From positions 1 to 40,881 of the forward strand of contig JANXMS010000274.1 in NCBI GenBank assembly GCA_025354525.1: a stretch of DNA of 40,881 nt, read 5' to 3'. A program made the position numbers and the translations under genes. Positions 12,083-39,912 of this stretch are shown here, one piece after another; positions within the stretch are counted from its first letter, which is position 1; every line of letters begins with the position of its first letter. The stretch comes from Acidobacteriota bacterium (lineage in GTDB: Bacteria; Acidobacteriota; Terriglobia; Bryobacterales; Bryobacteraceae). The notes beneath the pieces are model-generated. The model was not told the DNA's origin and did not search any database. It saw only the letters and a program-made list of their open reading frames with translations.

Positions 12083-15000
12083 TTAGTTTGGTCGGAAGAT
12101 TGCAGCTTTGTTGCCGATGAGCGACCCGCCGTCGTTGCCGATCAGCGACCCGCCGTCGTTACCGATCAGCGACCCGCCATCGTTGCCGATCAGCGACCCG
12201 CCGTCGTTACCGATCAGCGACCCGCCGTCGTTGCCGATGAGCGACCCGCCATTCGGGGCTAGCAATATCTGAGGCACGGAGACCGAGCCGATGAGTCCGG
12301 CCTTAGGCAACCCTGAGAGGGAAATCAGCATGCTGTTTCCCTTTGCATCGCAAACGAAACTGAGGCCGCAGATGCCGATCGGTTGCCGGTTGGCCAACTC
12401 CAGTGCGCGGGCGGCGGCGAGCGTCGCGATTGCCTCGCTCTGCTGGTTTGCAAGGTGGGTGAAATACTGCTGCCTGACCTTCTGCCTGATCGTTTTGAAG
12501 TTCTCTCCGGTAAATGCTTCGAGCGCGAGAAGGAAGGAGTCTGCATTGTTTGCGCGCTCTAGCGTAGTGATATCGCCCAGAACATTCCCGGCGATGACGA
12601 TCAGAAACAGGGGCAGACGACTGAAGGCCGCCTGGGCAGATAAACCCCTTGGATCCGAATAGTTCACGGGATTAGCCAGAGCGTATTGATACGGATTGAT
12701 GGCCCTCGGTGAAGGATTTACTTCCCGATCTCGCGAGAGGAACCGCCCGCTGGTCGCATCGTAGAAGCGGAACCCCATGAGAAAGAGCCCGGCTTGGTCC
12801 TGTTGCATCACGCCCCAGGCACCAAGGAACGTGAACGGATTGTCAGAAGTTCCGCGGCGCCCCAGCGTTTCGCCGTAGGGGGTTATCTCGTAGGAGTCGG
12901 TCACGGCACCGTCGTCACCGGTGAGGAAGGTGGTGGAGCCGCGTCCATCGAAATGGTAGAAGCGGCGGGCGTTCGAGGAGGCGTCGATGCTGTACAAGAG
13001 CTTCCCATTCGGCAAATGGATGTAGTAGCGAAGATCGGCGTCAGCGAGACGCTCGGCCGCGATCGTCGGTTGACCGGTGGCGTAATTGACGACGTACGAG
13101 GTGGCCCCGCCGGGTGCGCTGCGAGCGATGACGTGGCCGCGAGCATCGTAGTCGAGCGTGACCGGCGAATCTCCGGAGGTGAAGCCGACAAGTCGGGAGG
13201 TGATGTCCCACGAATAGGCCCGACGGGCATCCGTTTTGACGCGACCAGCGGCGTCATAGGTGGCGCTCGTCAACTGCGAGGCGGCATCGTAGGCGAACTC
13301 TTCAGTGCCTGTCCCAACCTCAGCAATCGCCGGGTTGTCGCGTTCCTCGCTGATCACGCGATTGGCCTTGTCATAGCCCAAGCTGATCCGGCCAATCGTT
13401 TCGTCCTTCTTTTCCTCAATGGAGGTGAGGCGGTTATCAGCGTCATAGTTGAACGAGGTGACCACGGCGTTCGGCCGTCTGATGGCGGTCATGGCCCCCG
13501 CTAAGTCGTAGCTGAACTCGGTTTCGGCACCAAGCCAATCGGTGATTTTTGTTACTTCGCCTCGTTTGTTGTACGCGTAGCGAACGACCTTGTCCGGACT
13601 GTACTTCATCGCCGCGATGCGTCCCAGCGGATCACGATCAATCACGAGGCCGTTTGAACCAGTGATCCGGCCGTTGGCGTCGTAAGTCAAGGCGATGCCT
13701 TTAGCTTCGAGCAGGCGGCCCTTGTCGTCTCGATTGAACCTTAACTCGGAACCGTCGGAATGCCGGGTCGACAGCAGGCTGCCTGCCGAATCGTAGGTGT
13801 GGGCCACACTGCCGAGACCTTGCGGCAGTTTGACTTCAGCGACCCTACCGCGCTTGTCGTACGCAAGACTGGACGAGCGGTTCAGCGGATCCTGCAGAGA
13901 CAGCGTGCGGCCAGCCTCGTCGTACTGGTTGGCCCATACGGAGCCAGCAGCGTCTGTCAGGGTAGCGATGCGACCAAGGTCGTTGCGGGTAAGCGCGGTT
14001 TTGAGGCCGCCGGGAGCCACGATGGAGGCGATTTCGCCGCGCGCATCATACGCGAACGTAGTCTTTTCGCCCATGCCATTGGCAATACTGGTTACCCGTC
14101 CGACCGCATCGAACTCCTGCGACATCTCGACACCAAGCGGACTAGTCGATTTGGTAATCAGACCAAGCTTGTTACTCTCTTTCTTCCAAACCCGGCCATT
14201 GCCGTCGGTAGTGGTGGTCGGCACCCCTTCCTTGTTGTAGGCAAGTTCAGCGCGAGTGCCGATCCCATCTTTTATCGCAGTCATTCGGCTCAACGAGTCG
14301 TAAGTGAGTTCGACCTCGTCGCCCAAGGCGTCGGTAAACTTAGTGACCAGGTTGTTTCGGTTGTACGCAAAGGTCGTTTTGTTGCCGAGGCGATCCGTCG
14401 ATTGGAGCGGGAGAAGGCTAGGGTTGTAGATCCAGGACTCGGTGGCTCCCAGTTCATCCGTTCGGGAAGCGATCTGGTTATTCTGGTTCCTCGCGTACTT
14501 GACGGACTTTCCATTTTCGTCGGTCTGTTGGGTGATCCCGTCGCCCGCGTCATAGGCGAACAGGCGTGAGGTTCCGTCGGGATGGGTGATCTTCGTAACG
14601 CGTCCGAGGTTGTCCCGCTCATAGGTGGTCGCGTTCCCGGTGGCGGTTGTCACCGACGCGTTGGTGCCGTTGGCGTTGTACGTCCACTTGGATACGGCAC
14701 CGCCAGGAGACGTCAACGTCAGCGGTAAGCCTTGGGCGTTGTAGGTGTATTTCCAGGACTTTCCGGCGCGGTCGATGATCGTGAGCGGGTTGCCCCGCGA
14801 ATCGAATTCGTAGGCGATGGATGAGCCGTCGCCGTGCTCGATCTTCGTGACGTTGAAGAAGGTGAAACTAGCTTGGGTCTGGCCAGCGTAAGTGGCGGTC
14901 AGTTTGTTGCCCTGCGCGTCGGTGACGGTTTGGAGCATGCCGGTGGGGGCATGGTAGGTTAAGCTGGTCGAATTCCCGAGGCGATCCTTTATGCTGGTGC

Positions 15001-18000
15001 GTCGATGGGCGGGGTCGTAGGTTATTTCGGTCACCGAGCCGGTGGGGTCAGTGACGCGGACGAGGTCGCCGGCCACGTCGTGGGTGTGGCGGTTGACGGC
15101 GTTCAAGGGATCGGTGATCGCGGTGACCCCGGCGGCTTCGAAGGCGACTTTTGTGGGGCGGCCTTCGGCGTCGGACTGCTCGGCAACTCGGCCGGCGGGG
15201 TCGTAGACGTTGGTGTAGGCGGGGGTGCCGGCAGGGAGCAAGTGCTTGGTCAAGCGGCCGGAGGCAGCGTATTCATAACGGGCGGCGCGGCCGTAGACAT
15301 CGGTGACTGCGCTTAAGTTTTCGCCGCGATAGGCGAACTGGATCGTGCGACCGGTATGGTCCCGAACCTCGGTGAGGAACCCGCCGGCGTAGGTGAACTT
15401 CAGCGAGCGGCCGAGGCCGTCGTTGACTTCGGTCGGGCCGCCAGCGGCAGGCGTCACTTGAAGGGCGTTGCCGTTGCGGTCTTCGATGCGGGTGAGCTGG
15501 CCACGTCGATTAAAGGTGACGATTCGCGACTGGGCGATGTCGCCGAGCTTGTAGTCGTTCGCGGATTCGAGGAGCCGGTATTCGGACTTCTGCTGAGGCT
15601 GCATCTGCCAGGCACCGGAGACGAGCCGGAACGTGACCTTCACCCCGCCCTCGAGGGTGACGATGGCGGCGCCGGATGTATTGGCCAGAGAGAGGTCGAA
15701 GTTGTGCGCCCAGTTGAGCCCGAGGCCGCTGGCAATTTCGTTGCTTAAAAGCGCACTGCTGTAATAGCGTTTGAACTGCAGAAGCATAACCCCGCCGAGC
15801 GAGAGATCGTTGAATTCGTCGGTGTGTTCCCCGGTGGCGGTGGAAAAGGGGTCGCCGGCGGAACCGCTGGACTTGTACTGGGTCATCGGCCGGATAGCGG
15901 GCAGGGGCGGATCCTGCGGGGCGGAGTTGCTGCCGGAGACACCGACGAACATTTCGGCGTGTCCGGTGCTGGCGCGTTCAGAAGAGGCCATGCGGACGGG
16001 TCCGCCTTTGCCGGGGAGAGCGAGCCACTGGGGGGCGTTGCAATCGTCGGTAGCACGCGCCCAGCCGATGGCGAGGGAGCGGGTTGCACCGTGACTGAGG
16101 GCGACGATGCGACTGCCGCCGCCCATGCAGGCACTACTGATGGTTTGGATGCCGAGTTCGCGGCTGAGGTCGTCGGAGAAAGCGTACATGCGGGCGGGTT
16201 CGTTCGGAAAAGAGGTTCCGTTGACGGCGACGAGGATGGTTCCTTCGACGCGGACGGCAATGGCGTCGGCGCTGTCTTCCCCGTTGCCGCCGAGGTACGA
16301 GGCCGCGAGGACTTGGCTGCCGTTGGCGGAAAGCTGAAGGAGAAAGCCGTCGGTGGGGCCGCCCAGAAACTGCCGATTGAGCACGCTGCCGCCCATCGGG
16401 AGATTGCGGGAGGCGGTGACGCCGGAGACGAAGGCGGTGCCGTTGGCCGACACGGCGAGGGCGAGGACTTGGTCGTCGGCGCTGCCCCCGATGAAGGTGG
16501 AGTAGGCGAGGGCGGAGCCGGCGGGGTTGAGTTTGGCGACGAAGCCGTCGGTGCCGCCGAGGCTGGCGGCGGCGAGGACGCCGGGGGTGGTGGGAAAGTT
16601 GGTGGAGGCGGTGGTGCCGGCGACATAGACGTTGCCGACAGCGTCAAGGCCGACGCGTTGGATGCTGTCCGCGGCGGTTCCGCCGAGGAGGGTGGAATAG
16701 ATGGCAATCGGGTCGCCGGGGTTGAGCTTCACGAGGAAGCCGTCGGTGGCTCCATTGTGTTTGTCCTGGACGGCGCCGGGGCGGGTGGGGAAGTTAGTGG
16801 AGGCGGTGACGCCTGCGGCGTAGATGACACCCGCTGCGTCAACAGCCACGCTTCGGACGGCATCGTCAGCGGAGCCGCCGAGATAGGTGGAATAGAGCAG
16901 GCGTTCGCCCTTGGCGTTCAGACGGGCGACGAAGCCGTCGGCGGTGCCGCCGCCGTAGGTGCGTTGGAGAGCATCGGGGGTGACGGGGAAGTTTTGGCTG
17001 GTGGTGGTGCCGCTAATGGTGACGATGCCTTGGCGGTCAACCGAGATGCCGCCGGCCGAGTCGGCTCCGTTGCCGCCGAGATAGGTGACCCAGACGAGTG
17101 ATTTCGTATTGTTGCTCAGCTTCATGACAAAGACGTCGGTGGCACCGCCGGCGTTGGTCGGCTGGACGGGGCGGAGGACGCCGGGCATGTCGGTGGAGTT
17201 GGTGGTGCCGACGACATAAAGGAAGCCTTGGGAGTCTTCGACGGCTGCGGTGGGGACGTCGTCGCCGGAGCCACCGGCGAGGGTGAAATCGCCGAAGACG
17301 GGGTCGATGACAAGGGGGAGCGAGGGGTCGAATTTGCCGATGCGGAAGCCGACGGTGCCGCCAGCGAGGGAGTAGGAGCCGGTGACGGGCCGTTTGACGC
17401 CGTTGACCTCTTGATGGAGAACCGGCTTTTGGAAGAGGACGGTTTGGCCGCTGGCCTGCATAACGAGATCGCCGTTTGGAGCGATGGCGAGTTGGGTTGC
17501 GCCGGGGAGCTGGAAGCGGATTTTGGTAGGGTCGGCGCCGGGATTGACGATGAGATCGTATTCGAGTTGCTGGGGATTGCCGTAGTAGACGATGTCGACT
17601 CCGGGGAAGAGGTCTTTGTAATGGATGCGGGCAAAGTGGGGGACGCCGGTGCGCCATTTGCGGGCGTCGGAACCGGTGAGGTAGTTGGTGGTGGAGGCCT
17701 GTGGCTGTTGGCCGAAGGGGCGGGCGGCGGGGTTGGCTCCGAGCCATTCCAGGCGGACGGAGGCACCAGGGAGCGCGAAGAGAGCTTCCTGGGCGGAGAC
17801 GGCGACGCTGAAGTTGCCTCGGCGGGCTAGGAATTGGTAGCGGGAGTCGATTTGGCCTTGGTTGGCTTCGAAGCTGAGGGCTACGGCCGATGGGGCCCCG
17901 GCCCGTTCGCGCTTTACGATGTTACCGGCAGCATCGTAGGTATAAGAAATGGAGCGGCCGTCGCCGTAGTCGACTTTCGTTAGGCGCCCGGCGGCGTCGT

Positions 18001-18076
18001 AGGAATAGCGGATGGAGCTGGCGGAGAGGGTGGTGGACAGGAGAATTAGGGCGAATAGGGGGTTCAGTTTGTTCAT
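12083..18076 (-). CDS. Giant exported SBBP beta-propeller / RHS-repeat protein
   Basis: The 1997-residue protein starts with a signal peptide and two YD repeats (IRYSYDAAGRLTKVDYGDG, YTYDAAGNIVKRE). A DUF7948-like domain follows (about 65-265; GVDIVYYGNPQQLEYDLIV). SBBP beta-propeller repeats run from about 270 to 640, with recurring LAYSTFIGGSADD, GFVAKLN and VYVAGTT. A DUF6531-type entry segment (about 740-820; DPFSTATGEHTDEF) leads into many RHS/YD repeats to about 1700. The RHS core domain lies at about 1745-1810 (MGFRFYDATSGRFLSRD, NPYQYALANPVNYSDPRG). The last 190 residues after the DPRG motif form a tip with a hydrophobic stretch (LPLFLIVIAGNVLGDI) and six GGSLIGND repeats. RHS shells enclose or present a C-terminal tip, often a toxin, but no toxin family is recognisable here. 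A surface adhesin role is equally possible. Confidence 0.88.
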   Translation of the reverse strand: MNKLNPLFALILLSTTLSASSIRYSYDAAGRLTKVDYGDGRSISYTYDAAGNIVKRERAGAPSAVALSFEANQGQIDSRYQFLARRGNFSVAVSAQEALFALPGASVRLEWLGANPAARPFGQQPQASTTNYLTGSDARKWRTGVPHFARIHYKDLFPGVDIVYYGNPQQLEYDLIVNPGADPTKIRFQLPGATQLAIAPNGDLVMQASGQTVLFQKPVLHQEVNGVKRPVTGSYSLAGGTVGFRIGKFDPSLPLVIDPVFGDFTLAGGSGDDVPTAAVEDSQGFLYVVGTTNSTDMPGVLRPVQPTNAGGATDVFVMKLSNNTKSLVWVTYLGGNGADSAGGISVDRQGIVTISGTTTSQNFPVTPDALQRTYGGGTADGFVARLNAKGERLLYSTYLGGSADDAVRSVAVDAAGVIYAAGVTASTNFPTRPGAVQDKHNGATDGFLVKLNPGDPIAIYSTLLGGTAADSIQRVGLDAVGNVYVAGTTASTNFPTTPGVLAAASLGGTDGFVAKLNPAGSALAYSTFIGGSADDQVLALAVSANGTAFVSGVTASRNLPMGGSVLNRQFLGGPTDGFLLQLSANGSQVLAASYLGGNGEDSADAIAVRVEGTILVAVNGTSFPNEPARMYAFSDDLSRELGIQTISSACMGGGSRIVALSHGATRSLAIGWARATDDCNAPQWLALPGKGGPVRMASSERASTGHAEMFVGVSGSNSAPQDPPLPAIRPMTQYKSSGSAGDPFSTATGEHTDEFNDLSLGGVMLLQFKRYYSSALLSNEIASGLGLNWAHNFDLSLANTSGAAIVTLEGGVKVTFRLVSGAWQMQPQQKSEYRLLESANDYKLGDIAQSRIVTFNRRGQLTRIEDRNGNALQVTPAAGGPTEVNDGLGRSLKFTYAGGFLTEVRDHTGRTIQFAYRGENLSAVTDVYGRAARYEYAASGRLTKHLLPAGTPAYTNVYDPAGRVAEQSDAEGRPTKVAFEAAGVTAITDPLNAVNRHTHDVAGDLVRVTDPTGSVTEITYDPAHRRTSIKDRLGNSTSLTYHAPTGMLQTVTDAQGNKLTATYAGQTQASFTFFNVTKIEHGDGSSIAYEFDSRGNPLTIIDRAGKSWKYTYNAQGLPLTLTSPGGAVSKWTYNANGTNASVTTATGNATTYERDNLGRVTKITHPDGTSRLFAYDAGDGITQQTDENGKSVKYARNQNNQIASRTDELGATESWIYNPSLLPLQSTDRLGNKTTFAYNRNNLVTKFTDALGDEVELTYDSLSRMTAIKDGIGTRAELAYNKEGVPTTTTDGNGRVWKKESNKLGLITKSTSPLGVEMSQEFDAVGRVTSIANGMGEKTTFAYDARGEIASIVAPGGLKTALTRNDLGRIATLTDAAGSVWANQYDEAGRTLSLQDPLNRSSSLAYDKRGRVAEVKLPQGLGSVAHTYDSAGSLLSTRHSDGSELRFNRDDKGRLLEAKGIALTYDANGRITGSNGLVIDRDPLGRIAAMKYSPDKVVRYAYNKRGEVTKITDWLGAETEFSYDLAGAMTAIRRPNAVVTSFNYDADNRLTSIEEKKDETIGRISLGYDKANRVISEERDNPAIAEVGTGTEEFAYDAASQLTSATYDAAGRVKTDARRAYSWDITSRLVGFTSGDSPVTLDYDARGHVIARSAPGGATSYVVNYATGQPTIAAERLADADLRYYIHLPNGKLLYSIDASSNARRFYHFDGRGSTTFLTGDDGAVTDSYEITPYGETLGRRGTSDNPFTFLGAWGVMQQDQAGLFLMGFRFYDATSGRFLSRDREVNPSPRAINPYQYALANPVNYSDPRGLSAQAAFSRLPLFLIVIAGNVLGDITTLERANNADSFLLALEAFTGENFKTIRQKVRQQYFTHLANQQSEAIATLAAARALELANRQPIGICGLSFVCDAKGNSMLISLSGLPKAGLIGSVSVPQILLAPNGGSLIGNDGGSLIGNDGGSLIGNDGGSLIGNDGGSLIGNDGGSLIGNKAAIFRPN
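12110..12250 (-). repeat. Six 24-bp tandem repeats encoding GGSLIGND
   Basis: Six near-identical 24-base units (the last is 21 bases) start at 12110, 12134, 12158, 12182, 12206 and 12230. They lie at the 3' end of the RHS gene and encode GGSLIGN(D/K) in frame. The units alternate between gttgcc and gttacc at their start (copies 2-3 and 4-5), suggesting a 48-base duplication step. The near identity at the DNA level implies recent expansion or ongoing slippage. Confidence 0.95.
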
Positions 18077-33663: not shown

Positions 33664-34357
33664 CTGGCAGCGGCGCGGAGGGTGGACCAGTGTCTTTTTG
33701 TGGTCCGGGTTGGCGACGAGGTTCTGACGTTCCTCGGAATCGGCTTGGCGGTCGAAGAGTTGCTCGCATACGGGCTTCTGCGTCGTGCGGGAGGCAGGAA
33801 CGGCTTCGCTCGGAGGAATGGGGAGGCTGATGGGGGCGAGGTCGATGTTGCACGCATGGAGCCACGGTGTTTTGGTCGCGGCCGGATTGGCCAAGGTCCC
33901 CGTTTTCGGTGCCGTTCAGCGATTTACGGAGGAACGTGGGGAGGCCCTCGAAGGCTTGGCGGGGTAGCTATTGGGGGGGCTTGACGGAGGCGTCTTCGTA
34001 GCGGCTGGGGCGGTCGGGATCCATGTGGTTTCAGGGTGGAGGCCAGGGAAGCCGTGCCAGTAGCGGAACTCGGCTTCTGGCAGTGCAAGGCTTTGCCACG
34101 ACCGGTGGGACTGCCGATGGCATAGGAGGACAGCGGGGTAGGGCGCGCGGCTACAGCAGCAGATGGCGATGGTGACGAAGTGGTTGCGGAAGAGAATCCC
34201 GTCTTTGACGAGTTGATCGATGTGGGGCGTTTTGATGACAGGGTTGCCGTAGCAGCCGAGGTCGTCGAAGCGCTGGTCATCGGCTTGGATGAACACGATG
34301 TTTGGGCTGTTGGGTTGAGCGGAGAGGAGAGGTTTGACAACGGGGCATACGTTCCAT
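33660..34357 (-). pseudogene. Sulfatase pseudogene (frameshifts and large internal deletion)
   Basis: The N-terminal sulfatase segment is clear on the minus strand: PNIVFIQADDQRFDDLGCYG, then PHIDQLVKDGILFRNHFVT and the formylglycine-site region ICCCSRA (family C/SxSRA). Further pieces appear in shifting frames: FRYWHGFPG, DRPSRYEDASVKPP, LPTFLRKS, CNIDLAPISL (family DIAPTLL), LFDRQADSEERQNLVANPDH (family LYDLxxDPxExxNLA) and an end at 33660. The total of about 700 bases is roughly half a normal sulfatase gene, so a central deletion accompanies at least three frameshifts. Sulfatases commonly accompany DUF1501/DUF1552 modules, where they remove sulfate from complex polysaccharides. This one is no longer functional. 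It diverges from the DUF1552 gene. Confidence 0.82.
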
Positions 34358-34372
34358 AACGTGTAAGAAGCT

Positions 34373-35662
34373 ATGTCCTCGATTGTTACCCGTCGTTCGT
34401 TATCTCGCCGCAGCGTTTTGCGCGGCGGGGGCGTTGCACTCGCCTTGCCGTTACTCGATTCGATGACGCCGGCGTTCGCGCAGAAGGTTGGAAAGCCGCG
34501 GCGGATGATTGGCATTTGCAACAACCTTGGCCTGCTGGCGGATCAGTTTTTCCCGCAGGAGCCGGGGCGGGATTATGCTTTGTCTCCAAGCTTGCAGCCG
34601 CTACAGGCTCATCGCAACGATTTCACGGTTTTCTCTGGGGTTTCACACCCGAACGTGGACGGCGGCCATCCGGCGGACGTTTGCTTTTTGACGGCGGCCC
34701 CGCATCCGGGCAGCGGGTCGTTTCGGAATTCGATTTCGCTGGATCAGCATATCGCTGAGCAGATCGGCACGTTGACGCGGTTCCCGTCGTTGACGCTAGC
34801 CGTGAACACCCGAGTGAAAAGCTTGTCGTGGACCGGGACGGGTGTAGCGATTCCTCCGGAAGACAAGGCGGCGGCGGTGTTTCAAGAGCTGTTTTTCCAG
34901 GGCAGCCCCGAGCAGGTTGAGGCGCAGATTCGCAAGCTCGATACTGGACGGAGCATTCTCGATACTGTCGCCGGACAGTCCAAGGATCTGGAGCGGGGCT
35001 TGGGGGCGCGAGACAAGGATCGGTTGGACCAGTACTACACGAGCGTTCGCGATTTGGAGAACCGGCTGCAGGCATCGCGTGGTTGGGAGCGGAAGCCGAA
35101 GCCGGTGGTGAAGAGCGCGCCTCCGGTAGACCTGGCGAACCCGGCGGCGTACATGGAAAAGGTGAAGGTAATGTACGACCTGGCCCGGCTGGCGATCGAG
35201 ATGGATTCGACGCGGTCGATCACGCTGATGCTCGAAGGGGTGAGCACGCCGGTGATGGACATCGCGGATGCGAAGATCACGGACGGTTATCACAACCTGT
35301 CGCACCACGGGAAGTCGGAGGAGAAGCGCGGGCAGTTGAAGGTGATCGACCAGTGGCATATGAAGATGCTGGGGCATCTGCTAGCGAGCCTGAAGGGCGT
35401 ACGTGAAGGTGAGGACTCGTTGCTGGATCGGACGATGGTGCTGTACGGATCCAACTTCGGGGACGCCAACGCCCATACCTGTTTCAACATGCCGATGATC
35501 CTGGCGGGCGGCGGCTTCCAGCATGGACAGCACTTGGCGTTTGATCGGAAGAGCAACTACCCGCTGCCGAACCTGTATGTTTCGATGCTGCAACGGATGG
35601 GGATTGAGACGGACCGCTTTGCCTCTTCCACCGGCACGATGCGGGGCCTGGAGCTTACGTAG
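34373..35662 (+). CDS. DUF1552 protein with Tat-like signal
   Basis: The 429-residue exported protein has a twin-arginine leader ([20 protein letters not shown]). The DUF1552 body has [70 protein letters not shown] and the C-terminal [20 protein letters not shown]. The family is related in fold to DUF1501 and is almost always paired with DUF1592-type cytochrome proteins, as here. The stop is directly followed by the partner's ATG. Its function is unproven; a periplasmic hydrolytic or scaffolding role in organic matter degradation is inferred. It diverges from a sulfatase relic that probably belonged to the same degradative cluster. Confidence 0.9.
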
Positions 35663-38113
35663 ATGAGCGTGCGTCTGGCTGCGTTGTTCAGTGTTGCGGC
35701 GCTGGTATGGGGGGCTCCGCCGGATCGGGACTTTCTGCAGAAGCACTGCTCGACGTGCCACAACGCGACCGTGAAGCAGGGCGGGTTGGACTTGACGCAG
35801 CCGGTTGGCTTCGAGCAGAGGGTAAAGGTTCACGATCGGCTTAAGGCAGGGGAGATGCCGCCGAAGCAGATGACGAAACGACCGGACGCGGTGGCGACGA
35901 GAGTGTTTCTTGACGGGCTGGCGGCGGAATTGCAGGCGCATGAATTGAGCGATAGCCGGGCGCTCGACCGGCGGCTGAATCGGATGGAGTACGAGAACGC
36001 GCTGCGCGATCTGTTACAGGCTCCTTGGCTCCAGATTAAGGGCCAATTCCCGGAGGATGGTGAAGCGTTCCGGTTCAACAAGGGCGGCGAGGCGCTGGAC
36101 ATTTCGCATGTCCATTTGGCTCGCTACCTTTCAGCGGCGGACTACGCGATCCGCCAAGTGATAAGCGTGCAGTCTAAGCAACCGCCGACCAAGACGACCC
36201 GCTACTACGCTCGGGATCAGAGAGAGCTGACGAACAAGATCAACCATTCGAACCAGCGGGGCGACCGGCAGGCTTATCCGGTTTTGGGTTGGAAGGGTCA
36301 GCCGGAGATCTACAACAAGACGGCACCGTTTTCGGATCCGAAGACGCGCGAGCAGGAGGCGATGGCCTGGGTTTCGAGCAACTATGTGACGGGCTTCCGC
36401 TATAGTTGGGACGGCTTTCGGGCACCGGTGGCGGGCCGCTACAAGGTGCGCTTCAGCGGGTATTCGATTTGGGTGGCGCCGCTCGAAGGCGACCGGAAGC
36501 ACCTGCCGGATTTTGAGAAGGTAACGACGGGACGGCGATATGAGCCGGTGACTGTTTATACGCGAAACGGGGTGATGAATCGGCGGGTAGGCGAGTTCGA
36601 TTTGACGCCGGAGCCGAGGGTTCATGAGGTTGGTGAGGTATGGCTAGTGGGAGGCGAGACGTTGGTGCCCGATGCTTCGCGGCTGTATCGATCGCGCCCA
36701 AACAACTTCCGGAATCCGTTGATGCAGGCCGACGGCGCGCCGGGCGTAGCGTTCCGATGGATGGAGGTGGAAGGGCCACTCTATGACCAGACGACGACGG
36801 CTGGCTATCGCCTGCTTTTTGGCGATCTGCCGCTGAAGGAGGACCCGGAACCGCTGCTGCGGAACTTTCTGAAGCAGGCTTATCGCCGGCCTGTGGTCGA
36901 AGCAGACGTGAAGCGATTCCTGGACTTGATCGAAGGGCAGCGGGCGAAGGGCGTGTCGTTTGCAGAGGCGATGATCACCGGCTATACGGCGGTGCTGGCT
37001 TCGCCTGGATTCGTTTTTGTAAAGGAGAAGGCGGGTCCGCTGGACGACTATGGGCTGGCGACGCGGCTGGCGCTGTTCCTATCGAACTCGCTGCCGGACG
37101 AGACGCTCCGCAGCCGGGCGGCGCGGGGAGAGTTGCGTCGGCCTGATGTACTGCGGGCAGAGACCGAGCGGCTATTGGTTCAAGATAGCTCCCGGCGCTT
37201 CGTCGATGCGTTCCTCGACTATTGGCTTGATCTGCGGAAGATTGAGGATTCGACGCCGTCGGTCAGCTTGTACAACGACTACTATTTGGACGATGCCTTG
37301 ACCGAGGCTTCGATGGCCGAGAGCCAGCTTTTCTTTGCGGATATGGTGAAGCGGAATCTGGCGGCCCGGTCTGTCGTGAACTCCGATTTCACCTTCTTGA
37401 ATGACCGGCTGGCGGCTCACTACGGGATCCCCGACGTGACCGGGATTGCCATGCGTCGGGTTCCGATTCCGCCGGATAGCCCGCGCGGCGGATTTATGAC
37501 GCACGCGAGTGTCTTGAAGCTTACGGCTAACGGGACGACGACCTCACCGGTTCTGCGGGGCAAGTGGATCATGGAGCGGATTCTGGGCTATGAGATTCCT
37601 CCACCACCGCCGGTGGCCGCCGTTGAGCCGGACATTCGCGGGGCGGTGACGATTCGGCAACAGCTCGACAAGCATCGGGCCGACCAGAGTTGCGCGTCGT
37701 GCCACGACAAGATCGACCCGGCGGGGTTTGCGCTCGAAAGCTTCGACATCATGGGCGGTTGGCGGGATCGGTATAGGGCTGTGGATGAGAAGGTGGCTGC
37801 GGAGAAGGGCCGGGGCAAGAACGGCCAGCCGTTTGAGTTTCACTACGCGCTTCCGGTTGATTCCAGCGGCGTGCTGCCAGATGGTCGGTCGTTCCAGAAC
37901 ATCTACGACTTCAAGCGGCTACTGCGTGGCGAGGACGAGACGATTGCTCGGAATTTAGCGAGGCAACTGACGGTGTTTGCGACCGGCGCACCGATACGGT
38001 TTAGTGACCGGCCGAAGATTGATCTGATGCTGAGCCGGACGAAGGCGCAGGAGTACGGGCTGCGGAGCTTGATCCACGAGGTGGTGCAGAGCGAGTTGTT
38101 TCGGAACAAGTGA
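35663..38113 (+). CDS. DUF1587/1595/1592/1588/1585 cytochrome c-domain protein
   Basis: The 816-residue periplasmic protein has a signal peptide (about 1-18), a heme-c site CSTCH (Cys29, Cys32, His33), and DUF1587 (ALDRRLNRMEYENALRDLL). A DUF1595 helical linker (FLKQAYRRPVVEADVKRFL) and DUF1592 (YGLATRLALFLSNSLPDETL) follow. DUF1588 has FTFLNDRLAAHYGI, MTHASVLKLTANGTTTSPV and a second CxxCH at about 677-681 (CASCHDKIDPAGFALESFD). The protein ends with DUF1585 (DLARQLTVFATG-type segment NLARQLTVFATGAPIRF). It directly follows DUF1552, its usual partner. The pair parallels the DUF1549/DUF1501 pair encoded upstream. Electron transfer through the two hemes is expected; the substrate is unknown. 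Its last 130 bases are partly copied into the downstream repeat patch. Confidence 0.9.
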   Translation: MSVRLAALFSVAALVWGAPPDRDFLQKHCSTCHNATVKQGGLDLTQPVGFEQRVKVHDRLKAGEMPPKQMTKRPDAVATRVFLDGLAAELQAHELSDSRALDRRLNRMEYENALRDLLQAPWLQIKGQFPEDGEAFRFNKGGEALDISHVHLARYLSAADYAIRQVISVQSKQPPTKTTRYYARDQRELTNKINHSNQRGDRQAYPVLGWKGQPEIYNKTAPFSDPKTREQEAMAWVSSNYVTGFRYSWDGFRAPVAGRYKVRFSGYSIWVAPLEGDRKHLPDFEKVTTGRRYEPVTVYTRNGVMNRRVGEFDLTPEPRVHEVGEVWLVGGETLVPDASRLYRSRPNNFRNPLMQADGAPGVAFRWMEVEGPLYDQTTTAGYRLLFGDLPLKEDPEPLLRNFLKQAYRRPVVEADVKRFLDLIEGQRAKGVSFAEAMITGYTAVLASPGFVFVKEKAGPLDDYGLATRLALFLSNSLPDETLRSRAARGELRRPDVLRAETERLLVQDSSRRFVDAFLDYWLDLRKIEDSTPSVSLYNDYYLDDALTEASMAESQLFFADMVKRNLAARSVVNSDFTFLNDRLAAHYGIPDVTGIAMRRVPIPPDSPRGGFMTHASVLKLTANGTTTSPVLRGKWIMERILGYEIPPPPPVAAVEPDIRGAVTIRQQLDKHRADQSCASCHDKIDPAGFALESFDIMGGWRDRYRAVDEKVAAEKGRGKNGQPFEFHYALPVDSSGVLPDGRSFQNIYDFKRLLRGEDETIARNLARQLTVFATGAPIRFSDRPKIDLMLSRTKAQEYGLRSLIHEVVQSELFRNK

Positions 38114-38352
38114 GGCTTAGCCGGCTAGGCCGATCATGCGGCCTTCGGGGCCGATGTCGACGTGGAGCGCGGCGATCGGCGCACCGGTCGGGTTTAGTGA
38201 CCGGCCGAAGATTGAGCTGATGCTGAGCTGGGCGAAGGCTTAGTCGTCGGGGCCGATGTCGAGGTGTAGCGCGACAACTCGAAAGCTGAGTTGATGCTGA
38301 GCCGGACGAGGGCGCAGGACTGCGGGATTGCGGAGCTTGGCACAAGTGAGGC
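38114..38352 (+). repeat. Patchwork duplication of two convergent gene ends
   Basis: The spacer between the DUF1592-type gene and fhs is built of copies of their 3' ends. 38114-38172 repeats the fhs end (38350-38408), including a stop and its last residues GRMIGL. About 38171-38239 repeats 37981-38047 of the DUF1592-type gene (ttagtgaccggccgaagatt). 38239-38273 is a shorter fhs-end copy. 38282-38350 is a second copy of the DUF1592-type end (gatgctgagccggacga, ggagcttg, acaagtgaggc). The order A-B-A'-B'-A''-B'' indicates a segment spanning the original junction that was tandemly triplicated and then decayed. Confidence 0.85.
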
Positions 38353-39906
38353 TTAGCCGTCCAGGCCGATCATGCGGCCGTCGGGGTCGATGTCAAGGTG
38401 GAGCGCGGCTGGGGTTTTGCCGAGCCCGGGCATCAGCGACATGCTGCCGGCGACGGCGGTAACGAATCCGGCTCCGCCTCGGAGGTAGGCGTCGCTGACG
38501 GTGAACTCGAAGCCCTCCGGTGCGCCGCCGAGCTTTGGGTTGTCGGAGAACGAGTACTGCGTTTTCGCCATGCAGATGGGGAGGTGGCCAAAGCCGGCGG
38601 CTTGGAGTTTCGCGAGTTTTTTGGCCGCGCCCGAGTCGATGGTGACCGTTCCAGCGCGGTAGATCCGGGTGGCCACGGTGCGTATCTTTTCGGTCAGCTC
38701 CATCTCTGCCGGGTAGAGCGAGACGGCGGACCCGCCGGAGCTAGCGGCGACCTTTTCGGCGAGCTCGACACCTCCCGCTCCGCCCTTGCCGTAGAGGTCG
38801 CTGACGGCGCAGGCGACGCCGAGGGTGTCGGTGCAGTAGCCTCGCAGCAGCTCCAGCTCGGCGTCCGTATCGGTCGGGAAGCGATTGATGGTGACGACGA
38901 CGGGCACCCCAAACAGGCGGACGTTTTCGATGTGGCGCGCCAGGTTGTCCAAGCCGTTGGCGGCGACGGCGCGGACAGTGGCGACCATGACCGCCACGTC
39001 GGGGCGGAGGCCGGAGGCGGGCATGACAATATCGAAGAACTTCTCGGCTCCGAGGTCGGCGGCAAAGCCGGTTTCATTGACGACGAAGTCGGCGAGGCCG
39101 AGAGCCATGCGGATGGAGGCGACACTCGCCGTACCATGGGCGATGTTGGCAAAAGGGCCGGCGTGGACGAAGGCGGGTGTGCCGTCCGTGGTCTGCACCA
39201 GATTCGGATGGAGCGCGTCGGCCAGCAGCATGACGAGGGAACCGGTAATGCCCATCTCGCTGACTCGTGTCGAGCCGATGACGATGTTTCCGATGCGGGT
39301 TCGCAGGTCCTCGAGCGATTCGGCCAGTGCCAAGATTGCCATCATTTCGCAGGCGGCCGTGATGACGAATCCGGTTTCGCGGGGGCGGCCATTTAACCGA
39401 CCGCCGAGGCCGGTAATGACGGAGCGAAGGGAACGGTCATTGACATCGACGGCGCGGGGCCAGTCGATCGAGAAGGGGTCGACGTTGAGGAGGCCGTGGT
39501 GTTGGAAGGAGTCGATGAGAGCGGCGAGGGTATTCTGGGCGGCGGCGACGGCGTGGAAATCGCCGGTGAAATGGACGTTGATGCGGTCGTGAGGCAGGAC
39601 CTGCGACAGGCCGCCGCCGGTGGCTCCGCCTTTCTGGCCGAAGACGGGACCGAGCGAGGGTTGGCGCAATGTGGCGACCGCTTTTTTCCCAATGTGGGCC
39701 AGTGCTTGGGTGAGGCCGATGGTGGTGACGGTCTTCCCTTCCCCGTGGAGGGTTGGGGTGATGCCGGTGATGAGGACGAGTTTGCCGCGGCGCGGCGGCA
39801 GCTGATCGAGCAGGCCCAGTTGGACTTTGGCCATGTGCGGCCCATACGAATGGAGGAACTCGGCTGGAATCCCCAACGACTGGGCTACGGCGGTGATTGG
39901 CTTCAT
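38353..39906 (-). CDS. fhs: Formate-tetrahydrofolate ligase
   Basis: The 517-residue cytoplasmic enzyme joins formate and tetrahydrofolate to 10-formyl-THF with ATP. It shows the family nucleotide loop PTLHGEGKTVTTIGL (GEGKT at 55-59), the signature PSLGPVFGQKGGATGGG (84-99), VHFTGDFHAVAAAQN (111-125), FVHAGPFANIAHG, and VVTINRFPTDTDAE. It is somewhat shorter than many family members, which have about 555 residues, but no motif seems missing. It starts six bases after an aldose-epimerase-like gene on the same strand, and the two are likely one transcript. The enzyme feeds purine and formyl-Met synthesis or serine metabolism. Remnants of its 3' end recur in the downstream spacer. Confidence 0.95.
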   Translation of the reverse strand: MKPITAVAQSLGIPAEFLHSYGPHMAKVQLGLLDQLPPRRGKLVLITGITPTLHGEGKTVTTIGLTQALAHIGKKAVATLRQPSLGPVFGQKGGATGGGLSQVLPHDRINVHFTGDFHAVAAAQNTLAALIDSFQHHGLLNVDPFSIDWPRAVDVNDRSLRSVITGLGGRLNGRPRETGFVITAACEMMAILALAESLEDLRTRIGNIVIGSTRVSEMGITGSLVMLLADALHPNLVQTTDGTPAFVHAGPFANIAHGTASVASIRMALGLADFVVNETGFAADLGAEKFFDIVMPASGLRPDVAVMVATVRAVAANGLDNLARHIENVRLFGVPVVVTINRFPTDTDAELELLRGYCTDTLGVACAVSDLYGKGGAGGVELAEKVAASSGGSAVSLYPAEMELTEKIRTVATRIYRAGTVTIDSGAAKKLAKLQAAGFGHLPICMAKTQYSFSDNPKLGGAPEGFEFTVSDAYLRGGAGFVTAVAGSMSLMPGLGKTPAALHLDIDPDGRMIGLDG

Positions 39907-39912
39907 GTGGTA

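Follow-up and report, generated by a model that had tools for sequence, protein, structure and literature searches.

How does the space between two convergent genes come to be filled with further copies of the genes' own ends? This is the question raised by the junction of a DUF1592-family gene and fhs in the window, by which we mean the whole 40,881-nucleotide stretch of DNA analysed (Acidobacteriota bacterium, family Bryobacteraceae; assembly GCA_025354525.1, contig JANXMS010000274.1). An original prediction, made from the sequence alone, held that the two gene ends alternate three times across about 430 bases, as the amplified remains of a tight ancestral junction. We confirm that this triplication is real. 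Tandem duplication of the junction, its expansion to three units and subsequent decay form the best explanation, to which we assign a probability of roughly 0.88.

A convergent junction in three copies

Three tandem units of the same junction occupy window positions 37979–38409, with some 195, 104 and 136 base pairs (bp) of them left. With D for the end of the DUF1592 gene and F for the reversed end of fhs, the order is D1-F1-D2-F2-D3-F3 (Table 1). D2 (38172–38239) is identical to D1 at 61 of 68 positions and F3 (38350–38409) to F1 at 54 of 60; F2 is a stretch of about 40 bp at approximately 38236–38275, and D3 lies at approximately 38274–38347, with a doubtful alignment over roughly 12 bases where unit 3 begins. 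Local alignment scores were 101 for D1/D2, 90 for F1/F3, 68 for D1/D3 and 43 for F2/F3, compared with maxima of 28, 29, 27 and 29 in 1000 dinucleotide shuffles of each pair, so that the head-to-tail copies stand far above chance.

As had been proposed, the outer copies are the functional ends of the two genes. Both proteins are complete by their profile matches: the DUF1585/PSD2 match in the DUF1592 gene covers profile positions 1–74 of 74, and the FTHFS match in fhs reaches position 555 of 556. In unit 1 the stop codons of the two genes are, as predicted, separated by three bases (TGA-GGC-TTA, with TGA at 38111–38113 and the reverse-strand TTA at 38117–38119); the stop codon that fhs now uses is at 38353–38355.

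Table 1. Features of the DUF1592/fhs junction, in window positions
Feature	Position	Strand	Remarks
DUF1592-family gene	35663–38113	+	816 amino acids; PSD3, PSD5, PSD4, PSCyt3 and PSD2 domains; working end in unit 1
fhs, formate--tetrahydrofolate ligase	38353–39906	−	517 amino acids; working end in unit 3
Unit 1	37979–38173		Working D1 (37979–38113) and an unused, unbroken fhs-end copy, F1 (38114–38173)
Unit 2	38172–38275		Decayed; 91 of 195 positions absent (70 + 21); final bases common to the doubtful start of unit 3
Unit 3	38274–38409		Decayed D copy (about 28–29 and 32 positions absent, 1 base inserted) and working fhs end from 38353
Unit 1/unit 2 joint	38172–38173		2-bp microhomology (GC), read by eye
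Spacer between working genes	38114–38352		239 bp

Origin and decay of the units

The same gene pair is found on contig C363 of G006, a genome of the same genus, where the junction is present once. Its 195-bp unit aligns with unit 1 without gaps, and the stop codons (TGA-GGC-TCA) are again 3 bp apart. The G006 contig matches the window over 34322–38173 and 38344–39908, each in one piece at 85–87% identity, and the proteins of G006 and of the window's own genome (G000) agree at 698 of 812 residues for the DUF1592 gene and 475 of 517 for Fhs. A single-copy junction in a relative, and with it the ancestral tight spacing, was what the original prediction had anticipated; the contrary result, in which gene ends and spacer would show no similarity in relatives, was not obtained.

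When the DNA of 37950–38480 was searched against 237 genomes of the family, with two candidates scored per genome, matches were obtained in 30, and beyond G000 and G006 these comprised one gene end or the other together with a few short, weak matches (about 42–44 bits), some within the spacer. Within the genus, 17 of 19 genomes (the window's own among them) have a match to the DUF1592-gene protein at E ≤ 1e-80, and the best named locus for this protein is in a Bryobacteraceae metagenome-assembled genome at 76%, records of the window's own genome possibly having been left out. With Fhs, 61 genomes were searched, counting that of the window, and 26 gave a match; the distribution of fhs is patchy within the genus as well (12 of 19, own included). 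As a separate observation, G006 carries a tandem array between fhs and the next gene (L003 3042–3325, offsets 93, 72 and 165) that is related to an array on another of its contigs (L214 432–745; 85% over 177 bp); the scan described below reported no array of this type in the window, and L003 contains 26 N.

Comparison with G006 also bears on when the copies arose. In 12 alignment columns (9 once the doubtful start of unit 3 is left out) all three units share a state that differs from G006, and there is no column in which unit 2 or unit 3 joins G006 against the two other units. From this common history the triplication most likely took place after the lineages of G000 and G006 had split. The units differ from one another at 11 of 104, 20 of 134 and 15 of 75 positions, and the differences between G000 and G006 at four-fold sites of the two genes are higher (141 of 371 and 101 of 303).

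The inner D copies no longer change as a gene does. Their private changes, tallied by hand from the unit alignment, fall 8/5/4 on codon positions 1/2/3, where a comparison of G000 with G006 over the whole gene gives 86/54/252 (Fisher p = 0.0013). When the doubtful start of unit 3 is omitted, the inner copies have 5/3/2 (p = 0.0063). D2 and D3 thus combine relaxed codon positions with frame-breaking insertions or deletions, in the manner of pseudogene fragments, and have lost coding constraint. F1 has suffered no insertion or deletion. Of the inner copies, described in the original prediction as non-coding debris, D2, D3 and F2 are partial, and the fhs-like tail in F1 remains unbroken.

We infer the following mechanism. 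The 195-bp junction of two tightly convergent genes would have been duplicated in tandem by illegitimate recombination or replication misalignment at the 2-bp microhomology of the unit 1/unit 2 joint, a homology so short that the first copy seemingly did not arise by homologous exchange. The pair would then have expanded to three units. The two inner joints fall on one and the same fhs base, or very nearly so, as expected if a pair already present gave rise to the third unit through exchange or slippage; the second joint, between units 2 and 3, is blurred by a deletion. The ‘slippage or unequal exchange’ of the original prediction suits this expansion from two units to three. Free of constraint, the inner copies have acquired substitutions and have shed a net 150 bp or so through deletions. 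Since each gene keeps the outer copy of its own end and neither protein is harmed, the duplication could have persisted neutrally, the net outcome being the replacement of a 3-bp gap by a 239-bp spacer.

Several observations weigh against this explanation. Among the loci fetched, the two genes occur together in G000 and G006 alone, and the ancestral state thus comes from one relative. Unit 1 is the one that differs in five columns (37994, 38023, 38124, 38144 and 38161), in which the other lettered unit or units agree with G006; three of the five have letters in two units only, and we read all five as probable changes within unit 1. The step from two units to three is based on short alignments. 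Finally, the G000 assembly is in 633 contigs, and 9 of the 21 tandem-repeat loci in the G000 sample that do not lie within one open reading frame (ORF) are at contig ends, as might be the case if junction variants of co-occurring strains had been concatenated by the assembler. Such an artefact is very unlikely here. The units are embedded in a 40.9-kb contig that contains no N, and the inner ones are no closer to G006 and carry deletions and a relaxed codon-position pattern; moreover, a junction duplication is also present in G017, assembled in about 40 contigs, and another is common to G009, G017 and G001.

Integrative elements can leave duplicates of gene ends, and the array could in principle be the scar of an element that rebuilt the gene ends on insertion and later left. 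The repeated unit, however, covers the ends of both genes, and all of the 431 bp consists of gene-end copies except for the roughly 12 doubtful bases at the start of unit 3. Those bases aside, no foreign DNA was found between the copies, in an analysis that included no search aimed at mobile-element genes. We regard a scar as scarcely credible, and tandem duplication followed by decay remains the explanation carried forward below.

The spacer and related junctions in the genus

Does the new spacer do anything? There is no terminator-like site in 37900–38500 and no Rfam match at the curated threshold in the window, and an RNA element or intrinsic terminator in the spacer was rejected on these grounds. 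RNA of the plus strand of the spacer folds better than its shuffles (z = −2.84, with 2 of 200 as good), and the minus-strand fold is ordinary (z = −1.01). The plus-strand fold was not accepted as evidence for an element because the DNA that encodes it is decaying, but it counts against a purely featureless spacer. Two sigma-70-like matches on the minus strand (9 and 10 of 12 positions; shuffle mean 0.1, standard deviation 0.3) both sit in copies of one fhs coding stretch, and we take them as one chance match counted twice.

A scan for imperfect tandem copies revealed three further duplications that straddle gene junctions in the genus, two of them at convergent pairs and one at a co-directional pair. 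In G017 (L243 2489–2935) a duplicated junction and a 209-bp spacer separate a PHO4 phosphate-transporter gene from a convergent YfhO-like gene (25.2 bits, under the Pfam cut-off of 28.5). The same genes overlap by 29 bp in G001 and by 38 bp in G009, both loci being without the repeat; in G010, G015 and G000 the match coordinates overlap, which points to one copy there too. In G009 (L270 13545–13719) the pair is AhpC/TSA and SMC, with a spacer of 108 bp and a mapped ancestral overlap of 4 bp; the duplication is present also in G017 (L278 2032–2268, spacer 149 bp) and G001 (L279 2039–2257, spacer 142 bp), and G015 and G010 may have a third copy, to judge from match coordinates. The co-directional case is in G000 itself (L155 18890–19518), where the joint, read by eye, is at an 11-bp repeat. 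Its second gene proved to be on the plus strand once the flank was extended past 20000 (codon-position differences 22/11/78). By match coordinates this junction is single copy in G001, G006, G009, G016 and G017, and the loci of G006 and G001 contain no repeat.

In all three convergent cases, then, ends that abutted or overlapped in the ancestor are now 108–239 bp apart, from a starting point of 3 bp of separation at DUF1592/fhs, overlaps of 29 and 38 bp in relatives for PHO4/YfhO-like and a probable 4 bp for AhpC/SMC. This is what would be seen if selection had kept the duplications because separating abutting convergent genes relieved transcriptional interference or antisense overlap, and the plus-strand fold and the excess of promoter-like sites over shuffles could be counted on the same side. 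We nevertheless consider selection unlikely. The spacer lacks a terminator-like site and an Rfam match, its minus strand folds in an ordinary way, the promoter-like sites both lie in copies of a single fhs coding stretch, and the inner copies are being lost by deletion. Furthermore, the same event has occurred at a co-directional junction, and the tight ancestral spacing is in part a detection bias, as short units hold both gene ends only when these are close together.

The scan considered offsets of 40 to 999 bp with at least 41 of 50 positions identical, in about 1.6 megabases (Mb) from four genomes of the genus: 589,853 bp of G000 (60 pieces, the window included), 224,910 bp of G006, 400,000 bp of G017 and 390,630 bp of G009. 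It replaced a self-blastn search, which did not report the DUF1592/fhs locus, and it gave no match in five shuffles of the window. Tandem loci not within one ORF number 21 in G000, 4 in G006, 2 in G017 and 7 in G009, of which 12, 4, 2 and 5, respectively, are over 300 bp away from any piece end. The corresponding densities of 20, 18, 5 and 13 per Mb are rough, since for G000 and G006 the sampling mostly followed contig numbers within a fragmented assembly. A non-random comparison set from other taxa (826,160 bp in 79 loci that surround relatives of the DUF1592 gene) yielded 5, or 6 per Mb, and G017 is no higher than this. Some of the loci are dispersed repeats, four pairs of repeat loci sharing sequence; the DUF1592/fhs locus has one match in its own genome.

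Other repeats were noted in passing. Two G000 contig-end arrays with a unit of about 155–157 bp (L153 1–370 and L154 1–897; 90% over 362 bp between the contigs) make up a dispersed family of tandem repeats at which the assembly may break. Within the window, a very long ORF on the minus strand (12083–18076) contains a 24-bp tandem array at 12110–12250 and, from 16379 to 17292, repeats with a period of 195 bp.

A first count, in which 9 of the 21 loci that were classified and clear of piece ends fell at convergent pairs (Fisher p = 0.0084; 0.020 without the DUF1592/fhs locus), had pointed to convergent enrichment. This was lost when L155 was reclassified from convergent to co-directional: with the DUF1592/fhs locus excluded, 7 of 173 convergent pairs have a tandem locus compared with 13 of 764 other pairs (p = 0.074; p = 0.054 against co-directional pairs). 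Orientation was taken from a crude ORF heuristic, under which this one locus needed reclassification, and given p = 0.074 we claim no convergent preference. Five further loci (L268 and L251 of G009, L249 of G017, L222 of G006 and L168 of G000) were counted as convergent by this heuristic, but their repeats do not clearly hold both gene ends and we do not claim the junction anatomy for them. A wider proposal, that recurrent tandem duplication across tight or overlapping junctions separates overlapping or abutting convergent genes in this genus and gives birth to intergenic DNA more often than in other bacteria, perhaps with help from convergent transcription or from selection against such transcription, is rather doubtful. 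A study of mutation accumulation in E. coli lists 0 tandem duplications for 67 wild-type lines and 1 for 37 mutS-deleted lines (PMC10292909), numbers low enough that a real excess in the genus would merit a proper count.

Relation to known duplications

What took place at the DUF1592/fhs locus, tandem duplication and later decay, is of a kind already known, and what is mildly interesting is its recurrence and the separation of overlapping or abutting genes. It offers a clean, polarised case of the birth of bacterial intergenic DNA, in which both proteins are undamaged and the decay can still be read. If the recurrence in the genus holds genome-wide, it would provide a testable path out of gene overlap. 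It also reminds annotators that gene-end fragments within spacers need not be genes. In the titles and abstract openings that our searches of the open-licence PMC literature listed, we found no description of a junction duplication that separates convergent genes.

Close direct repeats originate in tandem duplication and are then worn down as deletions and substitutions accumulate. The DUF1592/fhs array resembles them in its nearby, imperfect direct copies with deletions, but each of its units carries two gene ends and the outer copies are in use. With variable-number tandem repeats it shares tandem units of changeable number, and the AhpC/SMC match coordinates suggest two copies in some species and three in others; at the DUF1592/fhs junction, by contrast, G000 has three decayed units and G006 a single one, with one genome per species compared. 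Spontaneous duplications with short junction microhomology have been detected in Salmonella cultures (PMC3411829). As at DUF1592/fhs, these are in-place copies with one novel joint for each extra copy. The confirmed Salmonella junctions have more than 10 bp of microhomology (PMC3411829), compared with 2 bp in our case, and the junction described here is old, is present in three decayed units and lies across the ends of two convergent genes.

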